64,000 bases of DNA from Halalkalibacter krulwichiae (lineage in GTDB: Bacteria > Bacillota > Bacilli > Bacillales > Bacillaceae_D): positions 3,247,501-3,311,500 of the forward strand of contig NZ_CP020814.1 of NCBI RefSeq assembly GCF_002109385.1, written 5' to 3'. A model generated the notes under the pieces. The model worked only from the letters and a program-made list of their open reading frames with translations, made no database searches and was not told the origin of the DNA. The translations under genes and the position numbers were made by a program. Positions 20,981 to 52,320 of this stretch are shown piece by piece; within the stretch, counting starts at the first letter, position 1; each line of letters begins with the position of its first letter.

Positions 20981-21090
20981 ACTTGCACCTCCTCATATAC
21001 TCAGACTCGCCATCCTAGGTAGACAAAATGTCATTTCAAAACCTGTTCTGTGCGGTTGTAGTTGTTTGGGTGCGACCAAATAACTAACAA
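20981..21090 (-). ncRNA. L21 leader (autoregulatory 5' UTR)
   Basis: The roughly 110-base leader between the promoter and rplU contains the stretch CCGCACAGAACAGGTTTTG, which I recall from Firmicute L21 leaders, plus GC-rich pairable segments. The family is thought to bind L21 as feedback control. Call rests on position and partial motif memory; no full fold was made. Confidence 0.55.
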
Positions 21091-33561: not shown

Positions 33562-34779
33562 TTAACCACCGAAATTATCATAGATTGAGAACATTGGTAA
33601 AATTGCTGCTAACACAATTGTTCCAACGATTAATCCTAATACAACAATCATAAGAGGTTCCATGATCGCACTTAAGCGCGAAGCCATTTGTTCCACTTCT
33701 TCTTCATAGAAATCGGCTACTTTCTCAAGCATCGTGTCTAGTTGACCAGATTCCTCTCCCACTTTCACCATGTGGCTGACTAGCTTCGGGAAAACCCAAC
33801 TTTCTGAAAGAGGGCCCGATAAGCTTTCACCAGCTCGTAACGATTCTTTGGAGTCATGTAACACTTTTTTTACTACTTCATTATCAGAGATTTCCGCACT
33901 CATCGTTAATGTTTGTAGAACCGGAACCGAACTAGAAAACAAAGAAGCCATTGTTCTTGTGACTCGAGCTAAAATCGTTTTCTGAGCCAACAATCCAAAT
34001 ATAGGAATCTTTAATTTGGCATAATCTAGCATATACTTCCCTGTTTGGTTCCGTTTGATGCTAATAAATGCCAGAATTAACACGGTTACAAGGAGCATGA
34101 CAATATACCAACGTTGGATCAGAAAGTCCGAGGCTCCCATCACCAATTGAGTCGGAAGTGGAATGTCCCCTCCCATTGACGTTAAATTCGCTAGTAGATT
34201 GGGAAGAACGACCGTTAATAAAGTGATTACAACTCCAATGGCAATAATGGAGACAGCAATTGGATACATCATCGCAGATTTCACTTTTTCCCTTACACGA
34301 CGTTCCTTTTCGTAAAATGTCGCTAATCGCTCTAAGACATTTTCTAAATCTCCACTTGTCTCACCAGCACGTACCATGTTTATAAAAACTTTATCAAAAA
34401 CTTTCGGATGCTTCTCACAAGCTTCAGAGAAAGGTGTACCTGAACGGATGTGGAAATAGACATCATTTAAAACTTCTTTAAATCTTTTTGAAGTCACTTG
34501 GTCACTAAGAATATTAATCGCTTCTGTAATGGTCGTTCCCGCTTTTAATAGCGTAGCAAGTTGACGGCAAAACACGACGAAGTCTTGGTTTTTCACAGGT
34601 TTCCCAAGCGTAATATTTAAATCTTTATTCCAGATCGTCTCTACTTGTTCATTTAACTCAGCGATAAATAATCCTTTCCCTTTCAGCTCTCGAATAGCCA
34701 CTTCTTCTGAAGAGGCATGAAGCTTCCCTTTCACTTCTTTTCCCGTCCGAGAATCAATTGCTTTATAAAGAAAATTCAT
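33562..34779 (-). CDS. pilC: Type IV pilus inner-membrane platform protein PilC
   Basis: Polytopic GspF-type protein (405 residues) on which the PilB and PilT motors act. Two T2SSF domains are visible (about 70-195 and 270-395), each with FCRQLATLLKAGTTITEAI / RTMASLFSSSVPVLQTLTMS-like starts and the GEESGQLDTMLEKVADFYEEEV segment. Three membrane helices are predicted. AAGGGGG precedes the ATG. Last gene of the pilus operon. Confidence 0.94.
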   Translation of the reverse strand: MNFLYKAIDSRTGKEVKGKLHASSEEVAIRELKGKGLFIAELNEQVETIWNKDLNITLGKPVKNQDFVVFCRQLATLLKAGTTITEAINILSDQVTSKRFKEVLNDVYFHIRSGTPFSEACEKHPKVFDKVFINMVRAGETSGDLENVLERLATFYEKERRVREKVKSAMMYPIAVSIIAIGVVITLLTVVLPNLLANLTSMGGDIPLPTQLVMGASDFLIQRWYIVMLLVTVLILAFISIKRNQTGKYMLDYAKLKIPIFGLLAQKTILARVTRTMASLFSSSVPVLQTLTMSAEISDNEVVKKVLHDSKESLRAGESLSGPLSESWVFPKLVSHMVKVGEESGQLDTMLEKVADFYEEEVEQMASRLSAIMEPLMIVVLGLIVGTIVLAAILPMFSIYDNFGG

Positions 34780-35852: not shown

Positions 35853-37523
35853 TTATTCAACAGTTACTCTAAAGACTTCTTCAAGTGTCGTAATCCCTTG
35901 AGCAGCTTTCATTAACCCATCATGCTGCATACTAATGAAATCTTTCTCCTCCACATACGCTCGGTAAGTTTGATAAGAAGATTTTCTCGTAATGTATTCT
36001 CGTAGTGTATCATCCATTACGACAATCTCATGAATTGCTAAGCGCCCTTTATAACCAGTACTGTTACAGTTTGCACAACCCTTTCCTTTTACAAGGTTCG
36101 AAACGGTCATGCCAACTGATTCAAATACTTGCCGTTCTTCTTTAGTTGGAACATATCGGTCCGCACAAGAGGAACAGACACGACGGACTAGACGCTGGGC
36201 CACGATTCCAGACAGAGCAGATGAAACAAGAAATGGTTCGATTCCCATGTCCATTAAACGGTTAATTGCACTTATGGCATCATTTGTATGCAATGTACTT
36301 AAAACTAAATGACCTGTTAAAGCTGAGCGTAATGCAATTTCTGCTGTTTCCGTATCTCTAATTTCCCCTATCATAATAATATCAGGGTCTTGCCTTAAAA
36401 TGGATCGTAAACCAGACGCGAAAGTAAGACCGATGTTGGCATTAACTTGAACTTGATTGATTCCTTTTAATTGATATTCGACAGGGTCCTCAACCGTGAT
36501 GATGTTTACATCCTCAGAGTTAAGTTTAGACAATGCAGAGTACAACGTTGTTGATTTCCCCGAACCCGTTGGACCTGTTACAAGAATGATTCCATAAGCA
36601 CTATTTAACATCTTGCGAAACTTCTGTTCATTTGCGGTTGAAAAGCCCAAGCGCTTAATGCCTAACGATACATTTTCAGTATCAAGCAATCGCAAGACTA
36701 CTTTCTCGCCAAAAACTGTTGGCAATATCGACACCCGCAAATCAATTTTTCGAATTTCAAGGTCAACCTTAAACCGACCATCTTGCGGCAAGCGTTTTTC
36801 GGCAATATTTAAGTCAGCCAAAATTTTAATACGTGACACTAACACATTGTGCATACTCTTTGGAAGCGTTCGTTCTTGACGCAACACTCCATCGACACGA
36901 AAGCGGATAACCGTCTCTGATTCAAGCCCATCAATATGAATATCACTAGCTCCTTCTTCGGTCGCTTGATAAATCAACTGATTGACCATCTTCGCAACAG
37001 GAGAATCATCGGACTGCTGAAGATCACTCATAGCCGATTCGTCTTCTTTTACAGCCATGTTATCTACCATTTGGTCAATTGACTTTTGCATACCGTAATA
37101 GCGATTAATCGCTAAGCGAATCTCTTCTTTCTTAGCGATCGCTGGTTGAATGTGAAATCCGGTACTCAGTCTTAAATCATCTAATGCAAAAATATCGAGA
37201 GGATCAACCATGGCAACCGTTAAACGCTCTCCAATTCGCTCAATTGGCAGCAGTTGATAACGCCTAGCCAACTCTTCATTAATAATCCCAATAATTTTCG
37301 GATCAATTTTTTGTTTGTACAGATTAATATGGGGGATGCCTAATTGATACTCTAGTACTTCAATAATTTGTTGTTCGGTGACCACTTCCATTTGTACAAG
37401 CTGATCCCCTAATCGTGCACCTGTTACCTTTTGCTCTTTTAACGCAGCCATTAACTGATCATATGTGATCATGCCTGATTCAACGAGAATATCACCAAGG
37501 CGTTTTCTTTTTTGCGTAGCCAT
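35853..37523 (-). CDS. pilB: Type IV pilus assembly ATPase PilB with MshEN domain
   Basis: Motor for pilus extension, about 556 residues. The N-terminus is an MshEN domain. Its first half fits the published c-di-GMP pattern RLGxxLLxxGLLxxxxLxxxLxxQ residue by residue (RLGDILVESGMITYDQLMAA, then LKEQ). The second half (RLGDQLVQMEVVTEQ) has Glu where Gly is expected. The motor domain has Walker A GPTGSGKSTTLY, Walker B LRQDPDIIMIGEIRD, His box LSTLHTND and a zinc tetracysteine (CSSC ... CANC). ATG 37523 is favoured by AAAGGAG 8 bases upstream. Binding of c-di-GMP is therefore likely. Confidence 0.95.
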   Translation of the reverse strand: MATQKRKRLGDILVESGMITYDQLMAALKEQKVTGARLGDQLVQMEVVTEQQIIEVLEYQLGIPHINLYKQKIDPKIIGIINEELARRYQLLPIERIGERLTVAMVDPLDIFALDDLRLSTGFHIQPAIAKKEEIRLAINRYYGMQKSIDQMVDNMAVKEDESAMSDLQQSDDSPVAKMVNQLIYQATEEGASDIHIDGLESETVIRFRVDGVLRQERTLPKSMHNVLVSRIKILADLNIAEKRLPQDGRFKVDLEIRKIDLRVSILPTVFGEKVVLRLLDTENVSLGIKRLGFSTANEQKFRKMLNSAYGIILVTGPTGSGKSTTLYSALSKLNSEDVNIITVEDPVEYQLKGINQVQVNANIGLTFASGLRSILRQDPDIIMIGEIRDTETAEIALRSALTGHLVLSTLHTNDAISAINRLMDMGIEPFLVSSALSGIVAQRLVRRVCSSCADRYVPTKEERQVFESVGMTVSNLVKGKGCANCNSTGYKGRLAIHEIVVMDDTLREYITRKSSYQTYRAYVEEKDFISMQHDGLMKAAQGITTLEEVFRVTVE

Positions 37524-37567
37524 ACACATAGCTCCTTTATCTAAATAACTAGCTTGTCTGAATGGAG

Positions 37568-38230
37568 TTATTTTAAATGGTAGCGTTCGTATCCATTTAA
37601 TGTATGAACAAAGTCAAGCATTGCTGCTTGCGTTTGCCATAAGTACTCTTCTCTACTCGTTCGAGTATACTCATTAATGGCATTATTAGCTAACTGTAAA
37701 AAGGTGACCGTCTGTTCCAATTGGTCCTTGCGTTCTTCTGTTGTTCCTTGATTTATCGCTTGTTTGACAGCTTGCTCATAATTCGCAACAATCGTAGACA
37801 AGTTTGTCTGATCGTTTGAATCAAAGGGAGCACGCCCGAACCCAGCTGTAGACATTTTGCTTACTAGAGTGACAGCATCGATTGCTACAGGAAGGACCGT
37901 AGTTTGTTCATTTTCTAATAGACGAAACGGAATACGATCGACCCACGATTGAAAGCTTTCCCCTTTACTTGATACTTGTCGATTCACCATTTCTGCTGAT
38001 TCACGATCGTGTGCAAAACCAGTGTGAACGACCAATGAGGCTAACGTCGGATCATGCTCTCTCACAACCGACCTCGGGTAAATTCCATCATTCATTAAAT
38101 TACTTAACTGTCTAAGAAAATAATATTCTGTATTAAACGCTCCTGTTTGCACGACATAAAAAGCATTATCTCCAGCTTGAATCTGAGCATTGAAATTTTC
38201 TGGCTGGTAATAAAGTTCCAACCTGCTCAC
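37568..38230 (-). CDS. SPOR-domain frame of the pilus operon, SpoIIB-like
   Basis: A 220-residue frame with a SPOR-like domain (about residues 22-105; AFYVVQTGAFNTEYYFLRQL, later LVVHTGFAHDRESAEM) and a helical tail ending LWQTQAAMLDFVHTLNGYER. The same order and a similar ending (LWQSQQAILDALVSYEQV) occur in SpoIIB. SPOR domains bind peptidoglycan glycan strands outside the membrane, yet this frame has no signal or membrane helix. The only start, GTG 38230, overlaps the pilO stop (GTGA) but lacks a ribosome binding site at the right distance. The open frame continues upstream as a polar linker in step with pilO if one C is added at 38301-38304. A former PilO-SPOR fusion is therefore the better reading. 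I know no named homologue. Confidence 0.7.
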   Translation of the reverse strand: MSRLELYYQPENFNAQIQAGDNAFYVVQTGAFNTEYYFLRQLSNLMNDGIYPRSVVREHDPTLASLVVHTGFAHDRESAEMVNRQVSSKGESFQSWVDRIPFRLLENEQTTVLPVAIDAVTLVSKMSTAGFGRAPFDSNDQTNLSTIVANYEQAVKQAINQGTTEERKDQLEQTVTFLQLANNAINEYTRTSREEYLWQTQAAMLDFVHTLNGYERYHLK

Positions 38231-39186
38231 ACCAACATTGACGGAAGGTTCAGCGTCTGAACCACTCGGATTACGATCTTCCTCCTGCAGCGAGTTTGAC
38301 GGGGATCGTTCGTTTGCTCTGCATTTGAATCAGCTTGTGAGCTTGAATCATTACTCTGATTCGTATTCGTATTCGAATTAATAGAAGTTTGAGCGTGCTC
38401 TCCATTTATTTCCGTTGAACCAATCATACTAGATTCTATTATCGTCTCTACAGTCGTTACCTTCTCTAGATAAGACTTAATCCAAGCAGAATCAAACTGA
38501 TAATCAAGCTCAAACTCTTTCGTCTCTTCCATGAATGGCGAGAAATCTTCTGAATAAAAAGCTCGTAATGTTAAAACTCCCTCTACATGATTGGAATCTT
38601 CCGCTACCACATACGAATAATTTTGTATGTGGACAATTCGGTCAAGTTGCTCGATTTCATCGACAAAAGAATGAAGGTCATCCTCTTCTCCCAAAATGCT
38701 TAAAACTAGCTCCACATATGCAAGGTTAATATGTTCAAGTTCCGTTACCTCTTCCTCTAATGAGGCATAAAGCTCTTCAGAAAACAGATGTCGCCAGCTC
38801 TGGTTCTGGTCAACCTCAGCATCTGTCTCCTCATCAAATGGCGCTTCTAGCGGTGAAACTTCAATATCAATCCTTTCAATGACAACATCCGTATCCAGTT
38901 CAGTCCGCTCAAGGTCAGCAACCATTTGCTCAATATCCGGACGTAGAGGAATAAGCGCAAGGAGCTTACTCTCTTCTTCGTCACTTAGCTTCTGCTTCTC
39001 ACTATTATCCAAATGCTGTTGATAGGTTTGTAGACTGTTCGTTATTCGCTGCAATTCCGCCTGCTGATCTTGTTCTTTCGCTTGCAACGGTCGAACTTGG
39101 TATAAATAAAAAGCAACGAGGCCTAAAAAGAAAAGAAGAATAAAATATAAGACCGGTTTTTGATTACGTATAAACCATTCATTCAT
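38227..39186 (-). CDS. pilO: PilO-like pilus alignment protein, probably fused to the downstream SPOR frame
   Basis: Bitopic protein of about 319 residues: membrane helix (about 9-30), coiled coil (about 33-65), a two-part alpha/beta domain, then a low-complexity Ser/Asn/Gln tail from about residue 255. PilO with PilN and PilM forms the inner-membrane alignment complex. The last 24 residues (RQTRCRRKIVIRVVQTLNLP and onward) are basic and hydrophobic, unlike the tail before them. One more C in the GGGG run at 38301-38304 (plus-strand letters) would replace them with SNSLQEEDRNPSGSDAEPSV and lead straight into the SPOR frame. ATG 39186 overlaps the pilN stop by 8 bases, with AGGTG upstream. Confidence 0.75.
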   Translation of the reverse strand: MNEWFIRNQKPVLYFILLFFLGLVAFYLYQVRPLQAKEQDQQAELQRITNSLQTYQQHLDNSEKQKLSDEEESKLLALIPLRPDIEQMVADLERTELDTDVVIERIDIEVSPLEAPFDEETDAEVDQNQSWRHLFSEELYASLEEEVTELEHINLAYVELVLSILGEEDDLHSFVDEIEQLDRIVHIQNYSYVVAEDSNHVEGVLTLRAFYSEDFSPFMEETKEFELDYQFDSAWIKSYLEKVTTVETIIESSMIGSTEINGEHAQTSINSNTNTNQSNDSSSQADSNAEQTNDPRQTRCRRKIVIRVVQTLNLPSMLV

Positions 39187-39742
39187 ACTGTTCACCTGCT
39201 AACGTTTTTAGCTTTAACGTGAAATCCGATTGATAGATGATCCCGCTTTCGCTCTGCAATTCAATTGTCGTCACTTCCGCTCCACTTATTTCTCGCTCAT
39301 TTAGAAGGTGATTAAGAAAAACAGCTGCATCTCCTTTAGAGACAGACGTAACTTGAACAGTTAGATCACCATTGTTTTCATACGAGTAACGAGTGACCTC
39401 AGTCCCTTCTGGCAAATGGAAATAAATACGATCTTTTAACGAAATCGTTCCTTTAAACACACTCGATAACAAAGTACTCATAGCCGTAAATTCATCAACA
39501 TAATTGAAAGCATTAATGCCTGATGTCGTGGCTAACACACCTGCTTCAAGAGTAAGTAATTCCTCTGTCTTCGTCGCTACTTGCGCTTCCAATTGCGTAA
39601 CATTATTATTTACGCTTATATACGTAAACGTTAAAAACATCGCACCTGCAACGATCGAAGCGAGACCGAAAACCGGGATCAATGGAAGTTTCCCTTCCTG
39701 CCTTCGAGTTCGTTCAGGTAATAAATCAATACTAATGTTCAC
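39179..39742 (-). CDS. pilN: PilN-like pilus assembly protein
   Basis: A 187-residue bitopic protein: short cytosolic start (MNISIDLLPERTRRQEGK, containing the conserved N-terminal peptide that binds PilM), one membrane helix (about 22-43), a coiled coil and a ferredoxin-like domain. GTG 39742 has TTGGAG 8 bases upstream. Identification uses the INLLP-like motif, size and position between pilM and pilO. Confidence 0.85.
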   Translation of the reverse strand: MNISIDLLPERTRRQEGKLPLIPVFGLASIVAGAMFLTFTYISVNNNVTQLEAQVATKTEELLTLEAGVLATTSGINAFNYVDEFTAMSTLLSSVFKGTISLKDRIYFHLPEGTEVTRYSYENNGDLTVQVTSVSKGDAAVFLNHLLNEREISGAEVTTIELQSESGIIYQSDFTLKLKTLAGEQYE

Positions 39743-39773: not shown

Positions 39774-40898
39774 TTATTTTCCTTTTCGATTCTTATCTGG
39801 TTTGTCATTCGCTCTAAGGGCAAGCCCAATTGCTACACTGCACGAATCGAGCAGCTGTTGGTTTTGCTCGGCTGTTACAATCGAACTATAATCAATTGTG
39901 CTAATCTCCATGCGCATTCTCTCAGATAACGGATCAATAAGAAGACTAGCAGACTCTCCCGTTACAATGATTTTACTAAACTCACTATCACGTTCCCCAA
40001 GTGAATACCTAAAGAAATTCTGCGCTCTTTGAATCTCGGTAATGACAGAAGAAACATACTCGTCTAGACGTTTCGTTGAACCTTCTCTTGCGGCTGCAAC
40101 TTGTGTAACAGTCTCTTCTGCAACTTCATCCGAAAAAGCGAGGACGTCTTCATCTTGTCTAGGGCTCCTCTCATCAGGCTCCTCAAGCGCCATCGTTCTC
40201 GAGAAAACAATGAGATCGTGTTTGAAAATGTGGATATCGACCGTCTCTTCGGAAACATCGAGAATCATCGCTGTATCTTTTAACCAGCTAGGATGCAAAT
40301 ACATTAACAACCGTTGCAGTGACAACCCTCTTAGCTCAGCTGTAAGCGGCTTATAACCAGCCTCTTCACATGACTCCATTAAATCTTCTGAAATAGAACG
40401 CGACGTCGCAAAAAACAAAATCTCACTTCGCGGTCCCTGAATGTCCTTTTCAACATTGTTCGCTAGTTCCTCAAGGGTAAAATCATCATCTGTCCTTACC
40501 CCATTTCGTTCTGGGATGACCGACCCAATTTTGACAAAATCATAAATCGGATCCTCAAACGGAATATGAATCGATTCCCCAATCTGAAACCGAATCAGCT
40601 TCGCTAAATCTTTTTCCTCCAAATCAGGCAAAGTCGTAATTTTTCGTATGAGCGTATTTTGAGTAGGGATCGACAAATGAACCTTTTTTGAAGCTTTTTT
40701 ATTCCCCTTTAGATAACTACGAACAGCCGTTGACAACAAGCCTTTCTCGACCACAACCCCATTTGCTACAATGTTTTCTTGGAGTGAATGCTCATAAACC
40801 TCCTCTAAAACAGGAGCTTGCTTATCTAGCTTAATCGTCGCAAATGTCACTTTGTTGTCACGAACGTCTATGCCTGTGTATTTGTTGTTGAATAACAT
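39774..40898 (-). CDS. pilM: Pilus assembly ATPase-fold protein PilM
   Basis: Actin/FtsA-fold cytosolic protein of 374 residues that binds the PilN N-terminus. The nucleotide-site elements are GIDVRDNKVTFATI at the start, MILDVSEETVDIHIF in the middle and IIVTGESASLLIDPL near the end. GAGGTG lies 7 bases before the ATG. First of the pilMNO set; the minor pilin genes come directly before it. Confidence 0.9.
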   Translation of the reverse strand: MLFNNKYTGIDVRDNKVTFATIKLDKQAPVLEEVYEHSLQENIVANGVVVEKGLLSTAVRSYLKGNKKASKKVHLSIPTQNTLIRKITTLPDLEEKDLAKLIRFQIGESIHIPFEDPIYDFVKIGSVIPERNGVRTDDDFTLEELANNVEKDIQGPRSEILFFATSRSISEDLMESCEEAGYKPLTAELRGLSLQRLLMYLHPSWLKDTAMILDVSEETVDIHIFKHDLIVFSRTMALEEPDERSPRQDEDVLAFSDEVAEETVTQVAAAREGSTKRLDEYVSSVITEIQRAQNFFRYSLGERDSEFSKIIVTGESASLLIDPLSERMRMEISTIDYSSIVTAEQNQQLLDSCSVAIGLALRANDKPDKNRKGK

Positions 40899-40915: not shown

Positions 40916-41959
40916 TTATTTATTACCGATTGTAGTTTTATAATCTTCAACTTTAATTGTTGAAGTGTTCGTAACATCCTCAGATGACCCTTTTTTGCAA
41001 AGCCCTGCGTTGGCAAGACCAATTAATGAACAATCAATTCCTTTTCCCTCTCCAGTAAAATCATTGTTGCCACTTGTTGAGAAGTTTTTAACAATGATAC
41101 CCGAGTTTATTATTAGCTTTCCAGCACCATTATAGTTGCTTGTTACAACCAAAGCGCCATTTACAGTAATTGGGAAGTTCCCTCCATGGTTTAAATCATT
41201 CACAATTAAAACTCCATCCACTACTATATTACTAGTGTTCCCTTGACCAGTAACTTTCATTTCTTTTACCATTACTATTGCGTCTGGTCCAATATACAAT
41301 TGATTATCGTTTCCACTATAATCTAAAACCTCAAAAAAATGAGTACCTGACATGTAATTTTTGGAACTACTAACTTTTTCATGCCCGAAATTACTAGCAT
41401 CGTTAGGAATTTCTAAGTGTGCCTTAACAGTATTAAAATCTGTATTAGACATTTTTAATTTATTATCATAAAGTTTAAGCGTATCATGATTATTACTTCC
41501 GTTATAATTGAAATTTTCCACAAAGTATAAAGGGGATTTCAGATATCCACTTACAATTGTCTCTTCTTGTATATTTAAAAGTAAATTTCTATTCACTTTG
41601 GATTCAGAGGCATAACGTGCTCCAATTTCATAAGTATTCGTTTCCTTATCATATGACTCGAGTGATACTTTAATTGGAATATCGTTTTTAGCTCCAATTG
41701 AAAATTGTTTAGGTAATTCTTCTTGTAGATAAGCAATTGCACCTTTTTCATAGATCTCCATCTCTTTTAAAGCTACCTCTATTGCACCTTCCGCACGATA
41801 AAACTCCCCTTGAACTTCTGCATTGCTAACAATTGTTTGTTTGCTATAGCTCGTCGAAAACAACATAGCAGAACCAACAGAAGCCAATAAAACAACAACA
41901 AATAAAACAAGTATTAATGCGGCACCTGATTCTGATTGAACCAATTTATCTTTCACCAC
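40916..41959 (-). CDS. PilX-type minor pilin with large C-terminal domain
   Basis: A protein of about 347 residues. The N-terminus (ESGAALILVLFVVVLLASVG) is the hydrophobic helix of the PilX group, which lacks the usual Phe/Glu start. The rest is extracellular and rich in Asn, Gly and Ser. The stretch from about residue 225 to 310 (DAIVMVKEMKVTGQGNTSNI, VDGVLIVNDLNHGGNFPITV) has repeating hydrophobic strands, suggesting a beta-solenoid. This could be a tip or adhesin subunit (inference). Several GTG starts are possible; 41959 suits AAGG best. Confidence 0.7.
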   Translation of the reverse strand: MVKDKLVQSESGAALILVLFVVVLLASVGSAMLFSTSYSKQTIVSNAEVQGEFYRAEGAIEVALKEMEIYEKGAIAYLQEELPKQFSIGAKNDIPIKVSLESYDKETNTYEIGARYASESKVNRNLLLNIQEETIVSGYLKSPLYFVENFNYNGSNNHDTLKLYDNKLKMSNTDFNTVKAHLEIPNDASNFGHEKVSSSKNYMSGTHFFEVLDYSGNDNQLYIGPDAIVMVKEMKVTGQGNTSNIVVDGVLIVNDLNHGGNFPITVNGALVVTSNYNGAGKLIINSGIIVKNFSTSGNNDFTGEGKGIDCSLIGLANAGLCKKGSSEDVTNTSTIKVEDYKTTIGNK

Positions 41960-41972
41960 TATCACCGCCTTC

Positions 41973-42404
41973 TCAAAAACGAGAATACATTATGGTAGAT
42001 GCTAGTTTAGTATCCCCGATTTCTAGTATTATTCGAACTTCATTAGCATCTTCTTCATTCTCAAAAACAAGAATAGAAGCTGATTCAGAAACAACTTGAT
42101 TACTTCCATTTATTAAAAGGATGGTGGTCATCTTCTCTTTATAAATCAGGAGAGTTTTATCATTTTTTCTTAGTTCCAATGTTCCCAAATCTTTATTTTC
42201 AATCCATCTTGCGCCATCACGCATTTCCCTCGTCATATATTCCATTAGAAAACGAGCTTGCCTTTGTGTATCATTTTTATGAAATACAACTTGTTCAGAC
42301 TTTAATGAATAACTTACGAGACTTACTGCAACCATCGTAATAACAGTCATTAAGGCAATTACGACTAAAAGTTCTACAAGTGTAACTCCTTTTTGATTAT
42401 TCAT
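41973..42404 (-). CDS. Minor type IV prepilin, PilW-like
   Basis: A 143-residue prepilin. The class III signal is MNNQKG followed by VTLVELLVVIALMTVITMVA, cleaved by PilD between Gly and Val, with the Glu at +5. The ATG overlaps the previous stop (ATGAATAA), so the minor pilins are translationally coupled. The C-terminal domain is short and not recognised. It probably helps start pilus assembly, like PilW/PilJ proteins. Confidence 0.8.
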   Translation of the reverse strand: MNNQKGVTLVELLVVIALMTVITMVAVSLVSYSLKSEQVVFHKNDTQRQARFLMEYMTREMRDGARWIENKDLGTLELRKNDKTLLIYKEKMTTILLINGSNQVVSESASILVFENEEDANEVRIILEIGDTKLASTIMYSRF

Positions 42405-42864
42405 CCGGTCGAAACACCACCGTAACAAGTTCAATTTTATTTTCTTTTTCATGTAATCCAGCTTTCCCACTACTAATAAAACTATTTTTCTCAACCCTAA
42501 CTGTTATTTGGTAAAAATTATCCACTTCATGCTCATAAGGATCGACTTTAACAAATACAGTTACGGGCTCATCTATCACCAAATTGCTATAAGGAGCAGG
42601 GAGGTTAGCATGCGATTCACATTGTTCGTTAATATTACTCCAACAATATGTATCAACACTCAATGTACCTGTTGTTGAGTACCTAACCTTCTCCATCACC
42701 TCTTGAGCAATATACGCAATTTGCGTTTCTTTTTCTTGACTAACCGTGCGCGTAAAAGTGCCAGTCATAATCGTCAATAATGGAACAATAATAATCCCGA
42801 CAATGACAATCGCTACTAACAATTCAACAAGCGTCAGCCCTTTCTCATTTTTCAAACTACTCAC
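42397..42864 (-). CDS. Minor type IV prepilin, PilV-like
   Basis: A prepilin of about 155 residues with the signal SSLKNEKG followed by LTLVELLVAIVIVGIIIVPL. Two Cys (CWSNINEQC) may form a disulfide. GTG 42864 overlaps the pilD stop (GTGA). The function in the pilus is inferred from family and position. Confidence 0.8.
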   Translation of the reverse strand: MSSLKNEKGLTLVELLVAIVIVGIIIVPLLTIMTGTFTRTVSQEKETQIAYIAQEVMEKVRYSTTGTLSVDTYCWSNINEQCESHANLPAPYSNLVIDEPVTVFVKVDPYEHEVDNFYQITVRVEKNSFISSGKAGLHEKENKIELVTVVFRPDE

Positions 42865-43613
42865 CCCTGCCACAAGCTGACATACCAATTCCAAACGTCA
42901 TATCCGAACAAATAAGCAATCAAAGTTCCGATAAAAATAAACGGCCCAAACGCGATCGGTTGTTTTCTCTTTACTACTCCAGTAACGATTAAGAGTAAGC
43001 CAACAACAGCCCCCAAAAAAGAGGCAACCATGAAACTTAAGAGCGTCATCCATGGTCCGAGCACAAGTCCAATTGCTGCATAAAGCTTTATATCACCACC
43101 ACCCATTCCGCCACGGCTGACGATCGCTATGAGAAGGAGCAATACAAAACCAACAGCCCCGCCAACTACATAAAACCAGAACGGTTCAGAACCAATAAAC
43201 AGCCGAGTTATTAACAAGATCGCTATTGCTGGAAGCGTAATCACATCCAAAATTAACTTTTCTCGAATGTCTGTCAAAACAGCTAACACAAGAACAGTCG
43301 TTAAAATAATCGCTGGAAGCAATTCAAGCTGCACACCAACAACTTTATAGACGAGGAAAAGAGAAGAAGCTGTTACAAGCTCACCAACAGGATAGAGAGG
43401 AGAGATCTTCGCCTTGCAATAACGGCACTTCCCCTTTAAGAAGAGATAACTAAAGACAGGCACTAAATCTAGTACCGATAAACGATGATGGCAGTTTGGA
43501 CAATTTGAAGGAGGGAAGGCGATTGATTCTTTTTTGAGTAGACGGATGGCGACTACGTTGAGAAAGCTTCCTAAAAGTAACCCTATTAACCAAAAATAAG
43601 AATCGCAAATCAA
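42861..43613 (-). CDS. pilD: Prepilin peptidase PilD/ComC
   Basis: Membrane aspartic protease (250 residues, about eight helices) that cleaves and N-methylates prepilins. The zinc-binding N-domain has CPNCHH and CRYCKAK. The catalytic aspartates are in VLTDIREKLILD and GMGGGDIKLY. It corresponds by position (next to folC and spoIIB) to comC of B. subtilis, so it probably also serves competence pseudopilins. Start appears to be TTG 43613 with AAGGAG about 10 bases upstream. A terminator separates it from the pilin gene. Confidence 0.94.
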   Translation of the reverse strand: MICDSYFWLIGLLLGSFLNVVAIRLLKKESIAFPPSNCPNCHHRLSVLDLVPVFSYLFLKGKCRYCKAKISPLYPVGELVTASSLFLVYKVVGVQLELLPAIILTTVLVLAVLTDIREKLILDVITLPAIAILLITRLFIGSEPFWFYVVGGAVGFVLLLLIAIVSRGGMGGGDIKLYAAIGLVLGPWMTLLSFMVASFLGAVVGLLLIVTGVVKRKQPIAFGPFIFIGTLIAYLFGYDVWNWYVSLWQG

Positions 43614-43647: not shown

Positions 43648-43680
43648 AAAAGCTGTCACTATGAACTAGCGACAGCTTTT
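43648..43680 (-). terminator. Terminator between pilin gene and pilD
   Basis: AAAAGCTGTC / GACAGCTTTT stem with a 13-base loop, followed on the minus strand by TTAAAAAAT (the T run is part of the stem). It is probably partial, so that pilin mRNA exceeds mRNA for the machinery genes. Confidence 0.7.
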
Positions 43681-43697
43681 TAAAGAAAATAAACACA

Positions 43698-44066
43698 TTA
43701 ATCAGTAGATGGGGAAGGTAGGGAATTTGGTTCACAGACCTCAGTAATTGATCCCGTATCATTATCTATGGTAAAAGCCGGAGTTGAGTTATCCGCACAC
43801 TTAGGAGCTTCTCTTAGGTAATCGGCAGCTACTAAAGCAGCTGCGTTGGCAGCATAGCTTCCTGTCATTGCATAATACCTTTCAGATGCATCCTGAACAA
43901 CCTTATTTACCTGAGCATTCGCATTTGCTTCAGCACTGTCTCTATTCCCCATAACCATGGGTACAACAATCGCCGCAATAATCCCCAAAATAACAATTAC
44001 CACCAATAACTCAATCAACGTTAAACCTTTTTGATTCTTTAAACGCTTTTGAATAAACTTTCTCAT
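43698..44066 (-). CDS. Major type IV pilin
   Basis: A prepilin of 122 residues with the signal MRKFIQKRLKNQKG cleaved before LTLIELLVVIVILGIIAAIV (Glu at +5). The mature part has an A-rich helix and two Cys (KCADN ... VCEPN) that can form the C-terminal disulfide loop of major pilins; ComGC is a relative. It is first in the operon and flanked by two terminators, the position expected for the most abundant subunit. GGGAGATG precedes the ATG. The leader contains a c-di-GMP-II riboswitch. Confidence 0.9.
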   Translation of the reverse strand: MRKFIQKRLKNQKGLTLIELLVVIVILGIIAAIVVPMVMGNRDSAEANANAQVNKVVQDASERYYAMTGSYAANAAALVAADYLREAPKCADNSTPAFTIDNDTGSITEVCEPNSLPSPSTD

Positions 44067-44154
44067 TCTTACTCATCTCCCAATATAAGTTTTTTTATAT
44101 CTAAGGTGTAACTAAAGTCACAGTCCTTAAGTACTGAAATTAACAAAAATGCCA

Positions 44155-44209
44155 TAAAAAATAGCCTTTCAATTTTTCTACTACAATCTATAAGTAGAAC
44201 ATAAAAGGC
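44155..44209 (-). terminator. Attenuator terminator in the pilin leader
   Basis: An outer stem GCCTTT/AAAGGC (44204-44209, 44164-44169) and a perfect inner stem TTCTACT/AGTAGAA (44193-44199, 44176-44182) are followed on the minus strand by TATTTTTTATGG. The 5' arm directly follows the riboswitch and overlaps the strand that closes its P1 helix, so ligand binding and termination should be mutually exclusive. Confidence 0.8.
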
Positions 44210-44285
44210 CGGTTGCACCAATCGCTCAATACGACTAAGGTGCCCAAATAAAAGTCGTATTTCTATGCTTTCCAAACTATTCTTT
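44200..44285 (-). promoter_or_regulatory. c-di-GMP class II riboswitch
   Basis: On the minus strand the aptamer reads GGAAAGC (44273-44267), then a perfect 9-base helix AATACGACT/AGTCGTATT (44261-44253 with 44236-44228) whose loop contains TTTGGGCACC. It is followed by GGTGCAACCGGCC (44219-44207). GGGCACC in the loop pairs with GGTGC downstream, making the pseudoknot. The order GGAAA, helix, UUGGGCAC, helix, GUGCAACCG is that of the c-di-GMP-II aptamer of Clostridium acetobutylicum. It lies between a promoter and a terminator ahead of the pilin gene; by analogy with the C. difficile pilus riboswitch it should turn transcription on when c-di-GMP is high (inference). Confidence 0.9.
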
Positions 44286-44295
44286 TGATACTTTG

Positions 44296-44324
44296 ATTGT
44301 ATTCTGAGAGATTGCTAAAGTCAA
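44296..44324 (-). promoter_or_regulatory. Promoter of the pilus operon
   Basis: Minus strand: -35 TTGACT (44319-44324), 17-base spacer, -10 TACAAT (44296-44301). The transcript would start near 44289, just before the riboswitch. Confidence 0.75.
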
Positions 44325-52039: not shown

Positions 52040-52320
52040 ATATAAAAAAACCCCCTCCATCCAAAGGACGAAGAGAGTTACTTTCGCGGTACCACCTTTG
52101 TTTGCAACAAAAAGAAATAGACCTTCTCGCTCCTTGTTGCACACTTAAACTGATAACGGCCAGTCTCCGGCTAAGCTTACTTTGATAACAAAATTAATTT
52201 TCAGCAAAGCTGCTCCTAGGCGACATTCAAATCGTACATCTTAAGAAATCTCTCAGCAACTGATTTCTCTCTCTGAAAGGTTCCGATCCTACTCTTCCTA
52301 TTCAACGCAATCATATTATT
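52040..52320 (-). promoter_or_regulatory. T-box leader of valS
   Basis: The minus strand carries the T-box antiterminator sequence AAAGGTGGTACCGCGAAAG (about 52096-52078). It is followed by a terminator stem, CTCTCTTCGTCC pairing with GGATGGAGGGGG, and then TTTTTTT (about 52044). The 5' part has the AGAGAGA and GAGA elements of stem I. A GUC valine codon within GAATGTCGCC (GTC at 52222-52224) is the best specifier candidate. Uncharged tRNA-Val would allow readthrough into valS. Confidence 0.93.

Follow-up and report, generated by a model that had tools for sequence, protein, structure and literature searches.

The leader of a type IV pilin gene in Halalkalibacter krulwichiae raises the question of whether c-di-GMP controls a pilus operon through RNA in this member of the Bacillaceae and, if so, in which direction and together with which other genes. 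Here, we analyzed a window, that is, the whole stretch of 64,000 nucleotides containing this leader, along with the rest of the genome and the genomes of relatives. A sequence-only reading of the window had proposed a class II c-di-GMP (c-di-GMP-II) riboswitch ahead of the pilin gene, and its claims are taken up below where the results bear on them.

A c-di-GMP-II aptamer in the pilin leader

Searching the window with the complete set of Rfam models gave three matches over threshold: a T-box leader, a ribosomal protein L21 leader, and a c-di-GMP-II aptamer. The T-box leader (52061-52314, minus strand) lies upstream of a gene that reads as a valyl-tRNA synthetase, the name valS being taken from reading the sequence, and the L21 leader is found at 20993-21067 (minus strand). 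The c-di-GMP-II model RF01786 matches positions 44281-44198 of the minus strand, and the features of the aptamer are as follows.

44198..44281, minus strand: c-di-GMP-II aptamer (RF01786; 67.4 bits, cut-off 53.5)
44253..44261, minus strand: 5′ arm of helix P3, pairing with 44236-44228 (Rfam alignment, sequence, and folding)
44228..44236, minus strand: 3′ arm of helix P3 (Rfam alignment, sequence, and folding)
44239..44243, minus strand: pseudoknot strand GCACC, pairing with GGTGC at 44219-44215 (read from the sequence)
44215..44219, minus strand: pseudoknot strand GGTGC, followed by the conserved AACC (read from the sequence)

The alignment spans the full model (1-84); its score of 67.4 bits exceeds the gathering score of 53.5 bits by 13.9 bits, and the E-value of 6.3e-13 rules out a chance match. 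Hence, the Infernal search with RF01786 on the minus strand, which the sequence-only reading had put forward as a check, places the leader above the Rfam threshold. The class II landmarks listed in that reading are all present as well: P3 has 9 bp (44261-44253 with 44236-44228), the loop is TTTGGGCACC, and its pseudoknot partner is GGTGCAACC. The strand GGTGC (44219-44215) is followed by AACCGG, and the conserved GCAACC is present. By the Rfam test, the pilin leader is very likely a c-di-GMP-II riboswitch, with ligand binding predicted. A search of a plasmid collection with the leader and pilin as query gave no match.

The P1 helix is weak in this copy. Several of its pairs are flagged as nonstandard in the Rfam alignment, part of them being standard, and the duplex amounts to −2.5 kcal/mol, compared with a stronger mean of −4.9 kcal/mol for the 65 pilin leaders from the order, this one included.

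A terminator that shares a strand with P1

Between the aptamer and the pilin gene, and directly upstream of the aptamer, the leader carries the following elements.

44296..44324, minus strand: promoter-like site TTGACT-17-TACAAT (10/12 matches), with the predicted leader start just before the aptamer
44156..44210, minus strand: intrinsic terminator, its 5′ arm (44210-44202) overlapping the P1 3′ strand (44208-44198) (folding)
44077..44081, minus strand: Shine-Dalgarno sequence GGGAG of the pilin gene (sequence)

The TTGACT-17-TACAAT site (44324-44296) ends 14 nt 5′ of the aptamer, and the promoter claimed by the sequence-only reading is supported in this respect. As a count, such sites are not above chance (4 found, 3.7 expected from shuffles), and the case for this promoter is therefore its position.

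Folding finds the terminator that had also been proposed, a 48-nt stem-loop of −16.7 kcal/mol (44210-44156) followed by a T-run. A terminator scan limited to loops of 3-8 nt detected none in the pilin leader, which is probably due to that limit, and the absence of a terminator suggested by the scan is overturned by the folding. The stretch between the terminator and the Shine-Dalgarno sequence (44155-44082) contains a further stem, CTTAAGG...CCTTAG, and some relatives carry a TTGACA element in the matching region. A TTGACA-like element near the Shine-Dalgarno sequence occurs in 7 of 67 pilin leaders, compared with 21 of 670 shuffles.

Because the 5′ arm of the terminator (44210-44202) overlaps the 3′ strand of P1 (44208-44198), the closed aptamer and the terminator compete for bases; the overlap itself is observed directly. 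Without c-di-GMP, the P1 3′ strand GGCCUUUUA would pair with the downstream UGAAAGGCU, and the resulting terminator would stop transcription short of the pilin gene. Once c-di-GMP is bound, the aptamer with its pseudoknot would keep the GGCCUUUUA strand in P1, the terminator would not form, and pilA and the following genes would be transcribed. We consider it highly probable that the leader is a c-di-GMP-II riboswitch acting in this manner, as a transcriptional ON switch for a type IV pilus operon. The machinery for c-di-GMP in this genome includes 12 GGDEF matches and four class I c-di-GMP riboswitches.

The overlap is conserved. We collected 68 pilin leaders, the window's included, of which 65 have a recognizable anchor and three do not, and asked for a terminator with a stability of at least −7 kcal/mol that starts in the P1 3′ strand. 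Such a terminator is present in 52 of the 65 leaders, compared with 27 of 325 sequences in which the downstream 150 nt had been shuffled; the remaining 13 leaders have none by the criteria applied. Of 76 loci that precede other genes, 37 have the same layout. There are 32 different terminator 5′ arms among the 52 pilin leaders, and in 41 of these leaders the arms prefer their own partner, in that the native pairing is among the top 20% of swaps. For P1 strands, a preference for the native partner is seen in 22 of 65 leaders, with 13 expected under the same 20% rule; this test is crude, the strands being cut at fixed offsets, and gives weak support for P1 pairing.

Energy folding of the longer RNA still makes the terminator when P3 is held and the pseudoknot bases are kept free, which means that the ON model needs cotranscriptional timing and the energy contributed by the ligand. 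Unconstrained folds of this longer RNA, obtained with a method that excludes pseudoknots, do not contain the native aptamer. Since folding retains the terminator, the argument for ON logic comes from the shared strand, its conservation, and the precedent from C. difficile, rather than from energies. The same persistence of the terminator with the core constrained, together with the weak P1 (nonstandard pairs, −2.5 kcal/mol), is what one would see if the aptamer were decaying, with an intact core and a P1 too weak to compete, such that the leader mostly terminates or is unresponsive. We give this alternative a small chance, the pseudoknot strands and AACC being intact, the score lying well above the cut-off, and the terminator and its overlap with P1 having been kept, as they also are in two pilin leaders from the same genus (L014 and L025).

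The type IV pilus operon

The genes downstream of the leader are listed below; all are on the minus strand.

43698..44066: major pilin gene, pilA-like, 122 residues (PF07963; “major” from position and size)
43648..43680: 14-bp hairpin between the pilin and pilD genes (sequence)
42861..43613: prepilin peptidase PilD/ComC (Pfam, A24_N_bact)
42397..42894: minor pilin-like gene (PF07963)
41973..42494: minor pilin-like gene (PF07963)
40916..41965: PilX-like ORF, so named by position only (no Pfam match)
39774..40898: pilM (PF11104)
39179..39742: pilN (PF05137, 23.5 vs 22.8 bits)
38227..39195: pilO (PF04350, 24.3 vs 22 bits)
37568..38230: ORF inside the pil operon (no Pfam match)
35853..37529: pilB, extension ATPase with an N-terminal MshEN domain (PF00437, PF05157)
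37344..37502: tandem 24-residue MshEN-type motifs with a 5-residue spacer, PilB residues 10-62 (motif from PMC5013675)
34798..35838: pilT, retraction ATPase (PF00437; PilT by length, gene order, and lack of MshEN)
33562..34779: pilC, platform protein (PF00482)

The aptamer had been placed ahead of the major pilin gene, and the ORF at 44066-43698 with its N_methyl motif is indeed downstream of it. Prepilin, PilD, PilM, PilN, PilO, PilB, PilT, and PilC all score above their Pfam cut-offs, PilN and PilO narrowly so. PilB and PilT, which both belong to the T2SSE family, were told apart by the MshEN domain, length, and gene order. The two ORFs that lack a Pfam match (37568-38230 and 40916-41965) are possibly pilus components special to this group. 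The gene upstream of the operon appears to be folC-like, a name taken from reading its sequence, and the B. subtilis-like neighborhood described earlier is recovered in that the pil operon adjoins folC and includes a comC-type peptidase.

The 14-bp hairpin at 43648..43680 is possibly an attenuator or a stabilizer of the 3′ end. A search for promoters from pilA into pilD gave no good candidate, the best one having 9 of 12 matches, and we infer that the whole operon is cotranscribed.

Through the MshEN domain of PilB, c-di-GMP would probably act a second time, on the pilus machine. The c-di-GMP receptor MshEN consists of two 24-residue motifs, RLGxx..LxxxLxxQ, separated by a 5-residue spacer (PMC5013675). 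The first motif in PilB fits except for a Met at one position. The second has Glu for Gly and Ile for Leu, and the Glu falls outside the relaxed motif given in PMC5013675; c-di-GMP binding by PilB is therefore plausible, not assured.

Alternatively, the operon could be devoted to competence, not to an adhesive or twitching pilus, and c-di-GMP would then gate DNA uptake. No A24_N_bact match other than PilD exists in the genome, a single contig that is 99.99% complete, and any ComG pilins would depend on this ComC-type peptidase. PilM, PilN, PilO, PilT, and an MshEN-containing PilB are, however, a pil-type set, and the com locus, which is separate, seems disrupted: in ORF translations inspected by eye, it contains a ComGA-like ORF and comGB as two ORFs, followed by rRNA-like sequence (L198 1474-3358). 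The competence genes of this genome look damaged, and we see only a slim chance for a role of the operon in DNA uptake.

Comparison with the pilA1 switch of C. difficile

The reading of the leader as an ON switch for pili has a counterpart in Cdi-2-4 of C. difficile, likewise a class II aptamer in the 5′ leader of a major pilin gene, pilA1; there, transcription terminates without c-di-GMP and is ON with c-di-GMP, with some read-through into the pil genes (PMC6366702). The layout in the window resembles that of Cdi-2-4, with a terminator that shares a strand with P1 and precedes the start codon, and the C. difficile-like wiring claimed at the outset is strengthened by the fit between the P1-strand terminator and the ON logic of pilA1 (PMC6366702). 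Unlike Cdi-2-4, the present switch belongs to the Bacillaceae, adjoins folC, has a weak P1, and is a prediction from sequence. All four class II switches of C. difficile, including that of pilA1, are reported to be ON (PMC6200980, PMC6366702). Class I c-di-GMP riboswitches of C. difficile are OFF (PMC6200980), and an OFF switch in which c-di-GMP binding favors termination is nevertheless very improbable for the pilin leader, since its terminator uses the P1 3′ strand, making the closed aptamer and the terminator mutually exclusive, and since the four C. difficile switches of class II are ON (PMC6200980). We regard the pilin riboswitch, and its role in turning type IV pili on, as very likely genuine; both belong to a known kind and extend the clostridial wiring to the Bacillaceae, where it is common.

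Distribution of the class and its targets

Within the family, 21 of 41 genomes, from 6 of 7 genera, carry a c-di-GMP-II aptamer. A sample of 397 genomes from the order yielded 148 with a match, 140 of them over the cut-off. The window's genome is counted in each case; stricter filters were used for these counts, and weak matches were lost. These numbers rule out that the class is rare in Bacillaceae, and the earlier view that it is out of place there was overstated. A published set based on RF01786 includes a B. halodurans sequence as a c-di-GMP riboswitch homologue (PMC6806525), and a 2011 paper described pil operons in Bacillales (PMC3244431).

Downstream genes were examined for 158 loci, with tandem aptamers counted once and close relatives not thinned. 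The set combines 30 loci from the window's genome and the family search with 28 and 100 stretches from the order, which represent the better-scoring part of the order matches; 16 listed rows of the order survey and all rows beyond the listing were left out. nhmmer placed the aptamer in 157 of the 158 loci. Pilin genes, recognized by their N-terminal motif, follow 68 of them. Other targets include secreted or surface-like proteins, judged by their N-termini, as well as protoglobin-type and other chemotaxis receptors and EAL and HD-domain proteins. With the class so widespread in the order and pilins so frequent as targets, the switch in the window is typical of a common regulon.

At L018, L024, L079, L096, L134, and L167, c-di-GMP-II aptamers occur in tandem with a spacing of 75-81 nt, ahead of secreted or surface-like proteins; such arrangements are not new, 59 doublets and nine triplets having been published (PMC9481103). 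At five loci (L006, L007, L008, L019, and L021), the aptamer lies 14-16 nt before a protoglobin-type (HemAT-like) chemotaxis receptor, assigned by Pfam for L006 and by likeness for the other four. The receptor gene at L021 looks broken.

A second aptamer before an Sda homologue

The window's genome has a second c-di-GMP-II aptamer, at G000:C1:3542843-3542924(+), with 53.1 bits (0.4 below the cut-off of 53.5) and an E-value of 3.3e-10. Its pseudoknot, GCGCC/GGCGC, is compensated, and a start codon lies 25 nt beyond its end.

L002 1501-1774 (G000:C1:3542843-3543116), plus strand: second aptamer and Sda homologue (Rfam, Pfam)
L002, L011, L013, L020, L022, L067, L085, L090, L093, L101, L151, L173: Sda-linked loci

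The protein encoded at L002 is an Sda homologue (PF08970, 26.2 vs 22.6 bits), and phmmer aligns it with solved Sda chains (3fyr, E 1.4e-4; 1pv0, E 4.3e-4). It is a divergent paralogue that may inhibit sporulation kinases, as Sda does. Other Sda-linked aptamers of the same family score 55.9 (L022), 56.6 (L020), 60.6 (L173), 69.1 (L013), and 70.5 bits (L011).

Among the 158 loci, 12 are followed by Sda-like ORFs; these loci come from four families (f1, f6, f25, and f28). The Pfam cut-off is passed by nine of these ORFs but not by those at L020 (19.9 bits) and L173 (16.2 bits); the ORF at L022 has no Pfam match, yet aligns with the others. Six genomes of family f1 have an Sda switch, and five of them (G000, G012, G015, G024, and G025; not G014) carry a further match ahead of a pilin gene, the pilin matches in G015 (51.3 bits), G024 (44.8 bits), and G025 (41.7 bits) being below the Rfam cut-off. 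Each of the 12 genomes has at least one further Sda match, with six Sda matches in G000, from which it follows that the switch would act on a paralogue and not on the sole Sda. Named genomes were also searched with a pattern for the Sda-type platform; of the 12 loci returned, three are riboswitch-sda arrangements in Halalkalibacter/Alkalihalobacillus, and the other nine, judged from the organism names, are likely chance matches. G012, assigned to the genus of the window's genome, has a 1500-nt segment in common, without mismatch, with contig NZ_BAUV01000041.1 of Halalkalibacter akibai JCM 9157, and 150-nt riboswitch segments of G014 and G015 recur exactly in records of H. alkalisediminis and Alkalihalobacillus deserti.

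A terminator starting in the P1 strand was found in none of the 12 Sda leaders and in neither of two SinI leaders, and a terminator-like stem occurs further down in two of the Sda leaders. In folds read by eye and without a shuffle control, the strand after AACC pairs with the Shine-Dalgarno sequence or nearby bases in 11 of the 14 Sda and SinI leaders, the masking being ambiguous in L011, L013, and L069. The P1 strands of 10 of the 14 favor their native partner. These results suggest that the Sda leaders are translational ON switches, with a platform that masks the Shine-Dalgarno sequence instead of forming a terminator.

In C. difficile, c-di-GMP inhibits early sporulation by an unknown path, and the riboswitches of this organism did not appear to affect sporulation genes; as of 2021, direct control of sporulation by c-di-GMP was described as known only in Streptomyces (PMC8653836). 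A riboswitch on the checkpoint protein Sda would provide a direct route from c-di-GMP to sporulation in endospore formers. We are inclined to think that, in this branch of the Bacillaceae, c-di-GMP directly brakes endospore formation through RNA, by a translational ON c-di-GMP-II riboswitch before an Sda homologue. We set this reading beside the c-di-GMP-II ON switch for pili and the class I riboswitch before SinI in the same genome, and beside the occurrence of the Sda wiring in four families. The genome has two Spo0A_C matches. If the predicted functions hold, c-di-GMP would switch pili on and brake sporulation through RNA, and the link to Sda, by which c-di-GMP would act directly on the decision against sporulating, matters more than the pilin switch. 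Among the literature matches listed, which mostly do not cover subscription journals, we found no c-di-GMP riboswitch before sda, and a 2025 paper on Sda regulation has no hits for c-di-GMP (PMC11925247).

The link to SinI

In the same genome, a class I c-di-GMP riboswitch (G000:C1:2169472-2169560) precedes a gene for a 44-residue SinI homologue (L189 1352-1483, minus strand). SinI also follows two of the 158 c-di-GMP-II loci (L069 and L154). Together, the RNAs before pilin, Sda, and SinI could form a program for life on surfaces, in which pili are built, the matrix repressor is released, and sporulation is delayed.

SinI is not a new target, a c-di-GMP riboswitch before sinI having been reported in Bacillus methanolicus MGA3 (PMC4342826). 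The MGA3 switch resembles the Sda arrangement in that a c-di-GMP riboswitch precedes a regulator of development or biofilm formation in a member of the Bacillaceae; it differs in its target, sinI, and Sda has no hits in that paper (PMC4342826). Bc2 of B. thuringiensis, a class I riboswitch before cap, which encodes a collagen adhesion protein, is similar to the pilin switch in being an ON switch on surface adhesion, and differs in its unrelated aptamer class and its target (PMC6366702).
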